Below are positions 7,672-34,592 of a stretch of DNA of 64,000 bases, in pieces. The DNA lies in NCBI GenBank assembly GCA_944325515.1, contig CALVAO010000004.1, positions 62,001 through 126,000 of the forward strand, in the 5' to 3' direction. The notes beneath the pieces are model-generated. The model saw nothing but the letters and a program-made list of their open reading frames with translations, had not been told where the DNA came from and did not search any database. The stretch comes from Candidatus Gastranaerophilales bacterium (GTDB taxonomy: Bacteria; Cyanobacteriota; Vampirovibrionia; Gastranaerophilales; Gastranaerophilaceae). Each line of letters opens with the position of its first letter. The stretch's first letter is position 1. The translations under genes were made by a program, and so were the position numbers.

Positions 7672-8481
7672 ATGAATAAGATTTATGGTGTATATTTGAG
7701 CTTTATAGCGTGGTGTTATACTGCAGTATGCTATGCAACAGAGAAATTTGACATCCTTCCGGATCTTCCGGAACCTCTTGCAAATGCTGCTCAAGCCTCA
7801 TCAGTATCCACTACAGACACCGCTTCTAACGCTCTGACTGCAACACAAACAGTGGGGCAGGAGCCTAATTTAATCTCAATATTATTCTCTCTTATTTTCG
7901 TTATTCTTCTTATTTATGCAACTGGCATTATTTATGCAAAACTTAATAAATTAGGGCTTACAACATTAAAAAAACAAATTGGTGACGGTGACGGCAGCCG
8001 TGTTTCAGTAATTTCAACAACAGCTCTGGGAAATAACAAAACACTGCATGTTGTAGAGCTAGGCGGTCAGAGAATGCTTATAGGTGCATGCTCCAGCTCT
8101 ATTCATCTTATAAAAGATTTAGGACAATACCCGCCATGTGAGATAAAAGAAGGCGAATTCTCCAAAATTGAAATTCCTAATATTCGTATCCCCAAAATTG
8201 AAATTCCTAAAATTGAAATACCGGGATTCACAAAAGTAGTTTCTAAAATAAATGACGATACCGACAAACAAGACCCCGCAAAAAACGAAGGTGATGAAGA
8301 AAGTAATAATGATACCTTTGAAATTTCGGATATTTATGAGGAAGAAAACTCTGATGGGATTATAGACAAACTTTTTCATACTGCAGCGTCAGAATCCTCG
8401 ACAAATACAACTACAAAAGAAGATTTAGAACATAAAGTGGATCCGGAAGAATTTGCTTTATACAAAAAATACTTATCTTAA
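7672..8481 (+). CDS. fliO: Flagellar biosynthesis protein FliO-like
   Basis: 269 residues. An N-terminal hydrophobic segment, then a membrane helix near 65-85 (LISILFSLIFVILLIYATGI), then the FliO-like soluble core (VSVISTTALGNNKTLHVVELGGQRMLIGACSSSIHLI), which resembles FliO of the flagellar export gate. The C-terminal half is unusual: a repeat of I-x-IP pentapeptides such as KIEIP (about residues 165-186), followed by an acidic, low-complexity tail. FliO is poorly conserved, so the call rests on topology and the core motif. Followed at 26 bp by neuB-like and HAD genes on the same strand. Confidence 0.72.
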   Translation: MNKIYGVYLSFIAWCYTAVCYATEKFDILPDLPEPLANAAQASSVSTTDTASNALTATQTVGQEPNLISILFSLIFVILLIYATGIIYAKLNKLGLTTLKKQIGDGDGSRVSVISTTALGNNKTLHVVELGGQRMLIGACSSSIHLIKDLGQYPPCEIKEGEFSKIEIPNIRIPKIEIPKIEIPGFTKVVSKINDDTDKQDPAKNEGDEESNNDTFEISDIYEEENSDGIIDKLFHTAASESSTNTTTKEDLEHKVDPEEFALYKKYLS

Positions 8482-8507
8482 ATAAATCGACAGCATAAGG
8501 GGTTTTA

Positions 8508-9380
8508 ATGAGTAAAAGGTGTGTAAAAATAGGAAACAAAACGGTTGGAGAAGGCTATCCGTGTTTTATAATTGCTGAAATCGGTATCAATCACAACGGT
8601 TCGGTAAAACTAGCCAAACAGATGATAGATATAGCTAAAACAACCGGATGTGATGCCGTAAAATTTCAGAAACGAACGGTAGATGTTGTCTATACTAAAG
8701 AAGAACTGGCGAGAGAACGTAAAAGTATTTTTGGGAATACAAACGGTGATTTAAAATACGGACTTGAATTTGGAGAAAAAGAATACAAAGAAATTGATAC
8801 ATACTGCAAAGAAAAAGGAATAATGTGGTTTGCGTCCTGCTGGGATGAAGATTCGGTTGATTTTATAGAAAAATTCGACGTGCCATGCTATAAAATAGCC
8901 TCTGCTTCTTTAACCGATGATAATCTGCTTAAATACACAAAATCTAAAGGAAAACCAATTCTGCTATCAACCGGCATGAGCACTATGGAGCAGATAAAAC
9001 ATGCTGTGTCCATACTAGGAGAAGAAAATTTAATACTTTTCCACTGCACATCAACATATCCTTCAAATACAGCAGAAATTAATTTGAGAGCTATAGAAAC
9101 TTTTAGAAAAGAATTTTCATGCCCGATTGGATATTCAGGGCACGAAAGAGGTGTAACGCCATCTATTCTTGCTGTAGCACTGGGTGCCTGTGCTGTAGAA
9201 AGACATATTACGGTAGATAGAACTAACTGGGGTTCTGACCAGGCAGCCAGCCTTGAAATGGCGGGATTATACCATATGGTCAGAGATATCAGACAGGTGC
9301 CGGACCTGCTTGGTGACGGCATAAAAACGGTGTATCAAAGAGAAATACCGATTATAGAAAAATTGAGACGAAAGGGATAA
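8508..9380 (+). CDS. NeuB-like nonulosonate (sialic acid-type) synthase
   Basis: 290 residues. Condenses phosphoenolpyruvate with a hexosamine-type sugar in the NeuB/PseI/LegI family. Family motifs are clear: FIIAEIGINHNGS at the start, DAVKFQKR, CYKIASASL, LLSTGMST, FHCTSTYPS, IGYSGHERG and AVERHIT. Most members are about 340-350 residues with a C-terminal SAF (antifreeze-like) domain; here the protein ends just after the TIM barrel. The following phosphatase gene suggests a 9-phosphate product that is then dephosphorylated. Proximity to fliO suggests flagellin glycosylation, but this is inference. AAGGGG precedes the ATG. Confidence 0.85.
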   Translation: MSKRCVKIGNKTVGEGYPCFIIAEIGINHNGSVKLAKQMIDIAKTTGCDAVKFQKRTVDVVYTKEELARERKSIFGNTNGDLKYGLEFGEKEYKEIDTYCKEKGIMWFASCWDEDSVDFIEKFDVPCYKIASASLTDDNLLKYTKSKGKPILLSTGMSTMEQIKHAVSILGEENLILFHCTSTYPSNTAEINLRAIETFRKEFSCPIGYSGHERGVTPSILAVALGACAVERHITVDRTNWGSDQAASLEMAGLYHMVRDIRQVPDLLGDGIKTVYQREIPIIEKLRRKG

Positions 9381-32985: not shown

Positions 32986-34209
32986 TTAAGAAACTTTTAT
33001 ATTAAGTGTATGTGATAACGGAATTCCTCCTTGAATGGCAGGTTTATTTACAACTTTTCCTTTTATAAACATGACAGTTGAACCGCCTCCGTCAAGATTC
33101 ATGGCATTTACACAGCCTAGCTCTTTCATCAAACGGGCTAATTCCATTAAAGTTAAACCGATAGATGCTCCCTCTCTTCCGTCAGCGGTAAGCATTATTA
33201 GATGATTATCAGCTGTATAACCTATAGCTGTTCTGGGGTTTCTTCCTCCAATAGAAGCTAGTTTTTGTGCAGTCATGTCAACATATATATCACCGTTTTT
33301 AATTAAATATGGACCTCCGCTTATTATATGATTTACATCTCTCCACTCCGGATTCATTCCTATTTTTAATTTGAATTTTTTTGCTTCTGCGAATTTACTT
33401 AAATTCTTTTTTGTACCAACTATTACATAACCGTTTTTGGGGATTTTATTCCTTCCGATAGAGGTATTAACCAGCCTGCCATCCTCTATGACCATTTGCA
33501 TCCCATACCGAGGACTAGGCGGAGAATATTCACCCCAATCCGGCGTATATACGATTGTATGCAGCGACAGCATTCTAGGTTGATTGACATTATCAATTTT
33601 TAACCCTCCTATATTAGTTTCCAATATTGCATTAAGCTTTATTCTTGCCATTTCAAAGCCTTTGTCGAAAATTCCCATTGCCACTCTGTCATAAATCGGA
33701 CCGGTATAAACTTTCTTATTTATCATCAATGTGCCAAGCGGTACACCGGTTTGTGGTTTAAAGTATCCGCCGTTAATTGAAACTATTGCATTTTCCCTGT
33801 TTGCTATTGCAGAAATTTTTGAGCGGTTTGCGAGTGTATCGGATGCTATTGCAGGTTCTATCACCAATCTGTCATTTACACCCTGTGAAAGCTCGACAAT
33901 GTTTATTCGAACGGGTTTATTATTATAGTATTTTATCATTCTGACATGTTTAACACCTCTTTCTACATCTATGACCTGTGAATTAGGATATTTTTCTAAA
34001 ATTTTTTGCTCAAAGACCAGTTCTTCGTATTTTTTTTGTTCTTCAATATAATTTACTTGATAATTTACTCTCTGCGAAATTCCCGCATTTATATCTTTTG
34101 CGGAAATAAGCAGGTTCTGAGAAAAAAATAAGCAAATAGCTATACCTATACCTGCAGCGCTTGTTGCTGTTTTTTCGAATTGGGGTCTTTGTATAATGGC
34201 TGTATCCAT
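32986..34209 (-). CDS. Phosphodiester glycosidase family protein (DUF2233)
   Basis: 407 residues. One N-terminal membrane helix or signal anchor (about 16-37), a Gln/Glu-rich linker, then the NAGPA/DUF2233 domain with the signatures SINGGYFKP, GTLMINKKVYTGP, RNPRTAIGY, and the C-terminal CVNAMNLDGGGSTVMF. The family hydrolyses sugar phosphodiesters and is linked to exopolysaccharide genes. The ATG at 34209 is preferred over a GTG at 34218 because AGGTGAG is then correctly spaced. Expressed from a leader of about 215 nt. Confidence 0.88.
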   Translation of the reverse strand: MDTAIIQRPQFEKTATSAAGIGIAICLFFSQNLLISAKDINAGISQRVNYQVNYIEEQKKYEELVFEQKILEKYPNSQVIDVERGVKHVRMIKYYNNKPVRINIVELSQGVNDRLVIEPAIASDTLANRSKISAIANRENAIVSINGGYFKPQTGVPLGTLMINKKVYTGPIYDRVAMGIFDKGFEMARIKLNAILETNIGGLKIDNVNQPRMLSLHTIVYTPDWGEYSPPSPRYGMQMVIEDGRLVNTSIGRNKIPKNGYVIVGTKKNLSKFAEAKKFKLKIGMNPEWRDVNHIISGGPYLIKNGDIYVDMTAQKLASIGGRNPRTAIGYTADNHLIMLTADGREGASIGLTLMELARLMKELGCVNAMNLDGGGSTVMFIKGKVVNKPAIQGGIPLSHTLNIKVS

Positions 34210-34218
34210 TGCTCTCAC

Positions 34219-34338
34219 CTATTGTATAAAGTAACAGATACCTTTTTTATTAAGGAGTGGTGTGGGGCTATAACACTCCGCGGGTAAATATATTCCAGAC
34301 AGCACCTGCGCCGGTATATCTGTCCTGTATTTACTCAT
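34219..34338 (-). CDS. Possible 39-codon leader peptide
   Basis: ATG at 34338 to TAG at 34219-34221: starts MSKYRTDIPAQVLSGIYLP and ends LLNKKGICYFIQ. Its stop lies 9 bp before the glycosidase ATG, inside that gene's ribosome-binding region, which would allow translational coupling. No strong ribosome-binding site (AAGAAG, four bases away). GC content is higher than the surrounding spacer. It may instead be fortuitous within a structured RNA. Confidence 0.35.
   Translation of the reverse strand: MSKYRTDIPAQVLSGIYLPAECYSPTPLLNKKGICYFIQ
34254..34336. ncRNA. Structured leader element (unassigned RNA)
   Basis: Two nested hairpins. GGAGTG (34254-34259) pairs with CACTCC (34274-34279). GGGTAAATA (34282-34290) pairs with TATTTACTC (34328-34336) with one G-T wobble, enclosing GACAG (34298-34302) with CTGTC (34320-34324) and an inner ACC/GGT. 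It lies in the leader transcribed on the minus strand. It does not match a riboswitch class that I recognise. Confidence 0.4.
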
Positions 34339-34431
34339 CGACTTCTTGCCTATTAAGGCTTTTTAGTTGTCACATTCCAAAATTTTAAATTTTAGAATTA
34401 CGCTCAAGGAAATATTCTTTCCTCTACTATT

Positions 34432-34460
34432 ATTATATCATACACTTAATCTATTCTCAA
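34432..34460 (-). promoter_or_regulatory. Strong sigma-70 promoter of leader and glycosidase gene
   Basis: On the minus strand TTGAGA (34455-34460), exact 17-bp spacer, TATAAT (34432-34437) with an extended TGA in front. The start would be near 34425, leaving about 215 nt untranslated before 34209. Confidence 0.75.
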
Positions 34461-34592
34461 GAGGGTTGTACGCTAATTTATATAATACTTTAGGATAATT
34501 TTTAAAATAGTTAAAAATACACTTAATATTTATTAACATTTAAAATGCTCTTATATACTGATTTTCGGAATTGTGTATGTTAATATAGTTTT

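Follow-up and report, generated by a model that had tools for sequence, protein, structure and literature searches.

A conserved RNA element at the start codon of NAGPA-family genes in Candidatus Gastranaerophilales is a probable cis-acting regulator of translation initiation

Results

The NAGPA gene and its promoter

We analyzed a 64,000-nucleotide stretch of Candidatus Gastranaerophilales DNA (the window), in which a gene at positions 32986..34209 of the minus strand encodes a protein of 407 aa. A Pfam search assigned the protein to PF09992 (NAGPA) with an E value of 9.7e-40, so that the name phosphodiester glycosidase, given in an earlier note on this DNA, holds by family; in a sequence-based comparison, the closest solved structure was 5h3k, Slr0280 (E 8.3e-23). 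Judged by conservation, the start codon is probably the ATG at 34209 rather than the GTG at 34218 of the ORF list. The window's own genome contained a second NAGPA-family gene (two matches), and the RNA element described below was found there once, no further copy being detected.

An extended -10 promoter was located at 34432..34460 (minus strand), consisting of TTGAGA (34460-34455), a spacer of 17 nt with TG ahead of the -10 box, and TATAAT (34437-34432), followed by AATAGTAGAG. The boxes matched the consensus at 11 of 12 positions, and the promoter recurred upstream of NAGPA in relatives, as befits the near-perfect promoter reported earlier. Of 39 non-redundant loci, 37 had TAAGTGTATGNTATAAT upstream of NAGPA, exactly in 35 and with one mismatch in two, which argues that the promoter is more than a chance match; the two loci without it were L009, where the upstream region is replaced by unrelated repeats, and L044, which is divergent. 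A TGnTANNNT box with at least five of six -10 matches, followed by TAGTA, was found in 117 of 166 loci; for the AAGTGTA and TATTTAGTTTTGTAA box counts and for the pairing counts of 164 elements given below, loci fetched from genome contigs were placed in the window's genus by default, and L044 (52% identity), counted in that genus, probably belongs elsewhere. In L009 and L041, the promoter region was swapped for repeated GCCGACCGG-type sequence, either a real insertion or a misassembly. The promoters of L088-L258 had a lineage-typical extended -10, for example TGTTACAAT, then TAGTAG at the likely transcription start, and the same arrangement was noticed by eye in orthologues lacking the element.

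Conserved boxes accompanied the promoter. A TTAAGTGTAT box in the spacer (34440..34449, minus strand) is, from its conservation, a probable protein-binding site, and a second, likewise conserved copy lay upstream at 34517..34526 on the same strand. Among 49 promoters of the window's group, AAGTGTA occupied the spacer position in 47 and was present in two copies in 46. Exact TTAAGTGTAT sites numbered 12 in the window's genome, and one was noticed at 33002-33011 (plus strand), near the 3' end of the NAGPA gene. In other genera (L283-L288 included), a TATTTAGTTTTGTAA box was observed upstream of the -10 box, its 7-mers being found in 78 to 91 of 105 promoters. Exact TATTTAGTTTTGTAA occurred in six of the ten genomes searched, each time at the NAGPA locus only; allowing one mismatch added one further NAGPA site and six sites elsewhere in the ten genomes.

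The leader and its 39-codon ORF

Measured from the predicted promoter, with the -10 box at 34437-34432 and the ATG at 34209 of the minus strand, the leader is about 215 nt long, as had been proposed. Its structured nature was also borne out: a 231-nt leader sequence folded at -57.7 kcal/mol (z = -3.27), and only one of 200 dinucleotide shuffles folded as well. Alignment of the regions upstream of NAGPA homologues revealed two conserved blocks, the promoter and about 78 nt ending in codon 3, between which lay a stretch that varied in length; the distance from the -10 box to the ATG ranged from 110 to 317 nt at 37 loci.

The hairpins that make up the leader's 5' part (H1-H3) are additions specific to the lineage. 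The 5'-most hairpin, H1 (34406..34425, minus strand), and the second, H2 (34370..34403, minus strand, with conserved flanks GCGUAAU and AUGUGA), were confined to a subclade, in which an alignment of 13 sequences showed compensatory changes, six of 18 pairs having changed on both sides. These covarying hairpins account for part of the earlier observation of two substantial hairpins in the leader. In the variable part, the minimum free energy (MFE) fold contained a long stem, H3, formed by AGUAAAUA..UAUUUACC (34283..34335, minus strand), the conservation of which was not convincing in a generic stem test (7.3 pairs vs 6.6 in shuffles, 53 loci).

The variable middle of the leader carries about half of a 39-codon ORF (34338-34219, minus strand), the TAG of which shares nucleotides with the main gene's ribosome-binding region, GGTGAG. 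This placement favors a leader-peptide (uORF) attenuator, one of two readings offered by the earlier note. However, neither frame nor length was conserved. The phase of the ATG relative to the conserved block was distributed 67/55/42 among 164 elements, all three phases being used, and the window's reading frame met a stop ahead of the tail GG in 55 of them. An in-frame start was present in 39 elements and an ORF of at least 30 codons in 19, in counts for which some loci offered only about 200 nt of upstream sequence. Within the leader, the minus strand showed no terminator-like site, and the start-codon helix described below was retained in elements without such an ORF. Because the frame was not kept and the middle region was so variable, we rejected the leader peptide: the ORF is very unlikely to encode one, and uORF-dependent attenuation is scarcely credible. 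The kind of system that a leader peptide would need is represented by the Corynebacterium ilvB-II motif, the uORF of which is reported to be conserved (PMC10272879), unlike the ORF in this leader.

Layout of the element

The conserved element spans about 78 nt (34279-34202, minus strand) and reaches into the first three NAGPA codons. Its order is GGAGUG, loop UUAUAGCCCCACAC, CACUCC, tail UUAAUAAAAAA, GG, UAUCUGUU, GGUGAG, and AAUGGAUAC. The first hairpin, P1 (34254..34279, minus strand), is formed by GGAGUG (34279-34274) and CACUCC (34259-34254) around the loop UUAUAGCCCCACAC (34273-34260), and in the consensus appeared as a GAGUG:CACUC hairpin with a UUA..CCCC loop. It is followed at 34241..34253 (minus strand) by the A-rich tail UUAAUAAAAAA (34253-34243) and GG (34242-34241). 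Leader GGUAUCC can pair with AUGGAUAC, which spans the start codon. In the MFE prediction for the window, P1 was accompanied by a nine-pair helix between GUAUCUGUU (34233..34241, minus strand) and AAUGGAUAC (34202..34210, minus strand), the latter containing the ATG (34209-34207) and codons 2-3, so that the whole AUG was buried; the ribosome-binding GGUGAG (34214..34219, minus strand) lay in the apical part of this start-codon helix. When the 91-nt element stretch was folded alone, z was only -1.43 and 17 of 200 shuffles were as good. The element alone is thus not unusually stable, and the case for it rests on comparison.

Distribution and linkage to the NAGPA gene

With 0.1 as the highest E value accepted, a covariance model built from 39 elements (R1) matched 171 of the 286 genomes searched in the order, in 22 of 50 genera. 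Of these genomes, 157 held what were read as elements and four gave chance matches; in G228 the match was truncated by the end of a contig, and nine genomes were left unread (G103, G104, G111, G117, G145, G193, G217, G240, and G244). The chance matches (G140, G155, G222, and G253) were none of them near NAGPA, and their removal dropped genera g30 and g36. The element was therefore present in about 20 of the 50 sampled genera, all in family f1 of Candidatus Gastranaerophilales; elements were read in 19 of these 20, whereas genus g46 was included only on its coordinates, with the element at G217:C91:7562-7647 and a NAGPA domain on the same strand at 8377-8883. With a second model, R2, matches came from 112 of the 386 phylum genomes and 18 of 142 genera, every one in family f1. 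Searches of more than 40 genomes used stricter filters, by which weak matches were lost.

Of 383 genomes of the order, 378 had NAGPA-family genes, which indicates that the gene is widespread and the element an addition specific to one lineage. Several genera of family f1 retained the NAGPA gene without the element. Of 15 family genomes with no convincing element, ten kept the gene, and no close homologue was found at E up to 1e-8 in the others (G059, G076, G081, G082, and G119); in several element-less genomes of the family, a promoter was seen by eye directly ahead of the ATG.

A NAGPA homologue lay directly downstream of the element in 194 of 195 loci, a count in which several genomes are included more than once; the exception, L210, was at a contig end. 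The 195 exclude duplicates (L001, L033, L036, L038, L039, L041, and L047), L046 (without upstream sequence), pattern matches from the window's own genome (L048-L057), L136 (element visible, contig end before the ATG), chance matches (L139-L141, L143-L149, and L152-L157), partial matches at contig ends (L150 and L151), and orthologues from element-less genomes (L158-L183). Starting instead from the protein, 15 of 16 selected homologues carried the element, the remaining one being L046. Candidate elements at other genes were dismissed as chance: in the sequence retrieved for 16 weak loci (L139-L141, L143-L149, and L152-L157; E 0.0255 to 0.72), no NAGPA homologue was present, and four further weak matches were left unread.

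The gene neighborhoods of ten loci from ten genera gave no functional hint. By eye, a convergent gene cluster was common to six of them and another upstream gene to four; since neighbors are partly shared between genera, the linkage of element and gene is not wholly independent of position. None of these recurrent neighbors was among the NAGPA neighbors in the window.

Pairing, covariation, and controls

Structure statistics were collected from 164 distinct elements. The five inner pairs of P1 were standard in all 164. Pair 9:34 was G-C in 161 and A-U in three, the latter in genus g35, with one change on the tree of the downstream protein. The outer pair, 8:35, was A-U in 49, G-C in 15, U-A in nine, G-U in three, and C-G in two, with at least nine changes among paired states on the same tree; in the other 86 elements it was mismatched (U-U in 71 and C-U in 15), and we therefore regard this pair as optional. 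Covariation thus supports the predicted P1 hairpin.

The first five pairs of the start-codon helix were likewise standard in all 164 elements. The fifth pair was C-G in 159, U-A in three, and U-G in two, and the sixth was C-G in 140, U-G in 23, and other in one. Three elements of genus g35 had AAU in place of GAU as codon 2, each with a leader C to U change, and a fourth element of the genus had the U-G intermediate at the fifth pair; the putative start-codon helix is supported by this one genus. Insertions between the helix arms (L131 and g35) left the helix intact, and that of L131 looks, by eye, like a small mobile inverted repeat. The sequence ATG[G/A]ATA[C/T] was present in 195 of 195 element loci. 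ATGGATAC was absent from all 26 orthologues without the element, and codons 2-3 are therefore apparently held by the RNA and not by the protein.

Alignment A2, which excludes elements longer than 115 nt (g35 among them) and contains an accidental 12-nt stub row (L137), was compared with 500 shuffles. Its paired cells and covariation score exceeded all of them, whereas its count of pairs changed on both sides did not stand above them (500 of 500 as high). When partners were slid by +1 or +2, the covariation score was equal or higher, and paired cells fell to 27.9% and 53.1%, respectively, vs 94.7% in the true register. Covariation was confined to two P1 pairs and one start-helix pair, most helix pairs being invariant, and the changes at the start-helix pair and at pair 9:34 each occurred within a single genus. 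The covariation search over homologous leaders that the earlier note had proposed therefore favored the P1 hairpin and, from one genus, the start-codon helix, with mixed A2 controls. That note had also named a lack of conservation among relatives as part of its refuting condition; both sequence and structure proved to be conserved.

Since GAGTG..CACTC and GTATCC..GGATAC are also inverted repeats in DNA, a DNA operator read by a transcription factor, with no RNA structure, might be considered in place of an RNA. However, the P1 arms may lie 11-100 nt apart and the ATG followed GGUAUCYN at anything from 11 to 101 nt, G-U and U-G wobbles were in use, and the element was tied to the start codon, the -10 box lying 25-248 nt upstream of P1 in 117 loci. 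We therefore regard a DNA operator as very improbable.

The predicted pseudoknot

The GG at 34242-34241 is able to pair with loop CC at 34267-34266, which would give an H-type pseudoknot. The tail was 12 nt in 156 of 164 elements and 11 nt in eight, the outer P1 nucleotide included, and remained fixed while the loop and the distance to the ATG varied. Large insertions occurred on either side of loop CCCC (L132, L134, and g35), and the loop CC was present in 163 elements and was CU in one (L105). A fixed tail, a variable loop and ATG distance, and insertions flanking CCCC are what is expected of an H-type pseudoknot with an A-rich third loop. The proposed P2 comprises two or three pairs, none of which was seen changed on both sides in the 164 elements; with so few pairs and no covariation, we infer the pseudoknot from this geometry and consider a short one, formed by loop CC with tail GG, likely.

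The exposed, conserved CCCC loop could also be the target of a trans-acting small RNA that pairs with its C-rich sequence. In the window's genome, a 20-nt complement of the loop with up to three mismatches was found at the element only, and such a target appears quite improbable.

Discussion

Comparison with known RNAs

With Rfam 15 at the gathering score, the only match in the 64-kb window was a tRNA elsewhere in the window. Up to E = 10, the 501 bases around the element gave only a chance snoRNA, and 17 divergent loci gave two matches, both below their gathering scores. In architecture, the closest system is the preQ1 class I riboswitch (RF00522). These riboswitches control genes for queuosine synthesis or transport. 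The element resembles them in combining a small hairpin, an A-rich tail, and a possible H-type pseudoknot in a translational leader. However, preQ1 models gave no match up to E = 10 around the element or up to E = 1 in the 17 divergent loci, the sequences of loop and P2 differ from the preQ1-I consensus, and at 194 of 195 loci the element precedes NAGPA and not a queuosine gene. Because no preQ1 model matched and the gene is different, we did not assign the element to preQ1-I. In the Tte preQ1 riboswitch, two nucleotides are common to the pseudoknot P2 and the Shine-Dalgarno sequence (PMC9410914); unlike this arrangement, the pseudoknot arm presumed for the element would adjoin the start-codon helix and would not lie in the Shine-Dalgarno sequence.

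The element also stands near the orphan riboswitch candidates obtained from comparative genomics. Across species, it preceded a single type of gene with its orientation and position unchanged, and it had conserved unpaired nucleotides and covarying stems, the latter amounting to three pairs with mixed A2 controls. The carA, PBC-28-3, and odc1 motifs (PMC8632094) are similarly conserved structured RNAs that adjoin the start codon of a single gene type and are thought to be translational. They differ in their genes, and the element pairs with coding sequence, codons 2-3. In the literature on Gastranaerophilales or Melainabacteria, or on the gene, in combination with riboswitches, the matches listed contained nothing on the element, and the lineage and gene names had no occurrences in the main texts of PMC8040213, PMC11109978, and PMC8632094, to which the search was confined. 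An RNA switch that controls Rpf expression in Mycobacterium tuberculosis (PMC6009663) is alike in that it is reported to affect cell-wall enzyme genes, in an unrelated organism and at an unrelated gene.

Proposed function

From the comparative evidence, the leader's 3' end is probably a conserved RNA acting in cis to control initiation of NAGPA translation. The comparison shows P1 with its UUA..CCCC loop, the A-rich tail of constant length, and a helix of leader GUAUCC with GGAUAC, made up of the G of the AUG and codons 2-3. In the mechanism that we propose, this helix would hold the start codon, and loop CC and tail GG would form a compact H-type pseudoknot. The leader arm of the start-codon helix would begin at the second G of the GG, beside or within the pseudoknot strand. 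Since GG/GUA would be common to, or abut, the start-codon arm, we infer that folding of the pseudoknot or binding of a ligand could alter the hold on the start codon; CC:GG alone would not necessarily exclude the start helix. Predicted accessibility speaks somewhat against this reading: the start codon was unpaired with a median of 0.36 vs 0.42 in element-less orthologues (p = 0.016), a slight difference, and accessibility of the ribosome-binding region did not differ from that in element-less orthologues (p = 0.24).

Such a structure may act without a specific trigger, as a passive translation-tuning or temperature-sensitive structure in which the start helix sets a low rate of initiation and no ligand is involved. 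The start helix is short and A/U-rich, and its predicted pairing is near 1: the median predicted pair probability was 0.997 for its central pair (n = 163) and 0.91 for the central pair of P1 (n = 156). This explanation accounts neither for the near-invariant unpaired UUA and CCCC and the fixed-length A-rich tail nor for the restriction to one gene, and we consider it rather unlikely.

The trigger might instead be a protein, either the gene product itself in autoregulation or a dedicated RNA-binding repressor, in which case the element would be a translational operator and not a metabolite aptamer. A short hairpin with a strongly conserved unpaired loop and tail, the single copy in the window's own genome, and the conserved promoter box found in exact form at the NAGPA locus only in the genomes searched would all suit such an operator. 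However, the NAGPA product looks membrane-anchored and exported from its N-terminus, read by eye, and is therefore an improbable RNA binder, and the recurrent neighbors, such as the convergent cluster seen by eye at six of ten loci, are not beside the gene in the window. A protein trigger thus seems unlikely to us.

A small molecule is the possible trigger to which we give some weight, albeit with reserve. As to the form that sensing would take, we tentatively propose a new riboswitch class restricted to the family, in which the ligand of a minimal H-type pseudoknot aptamer would be a metabolite of the envelope or a sugar phosphate, and the aptamer's P2 strand would also serve as an arm of the start-codon helix. 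Of the unassigned riboswitch that the earlier note had offered as its other reading, a conserved cis-regulatory RNA without an Rfam match stands, and the riboswitch itself is only a candidate; taken together, we regard the element as a new orphan cis-regulatory RNA acting on translation initiation and, plausibly, as a riboswitch. If the proposal is true, non-photosynthetic gut relatives of cyanobacteria would possess a new riboswitch class acting on an envelope phosphodiester glycosidase. The element is in any case a strongly conserved regulatory RNA candidate in a lineage with little on record, and conserved promoter boxes together with the RNA single out the NAGPA enzyme as one that is probably under unusually tight control. 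Because the element is tiny and the covariation yields exact mutations, experiments can directly address what it senses.
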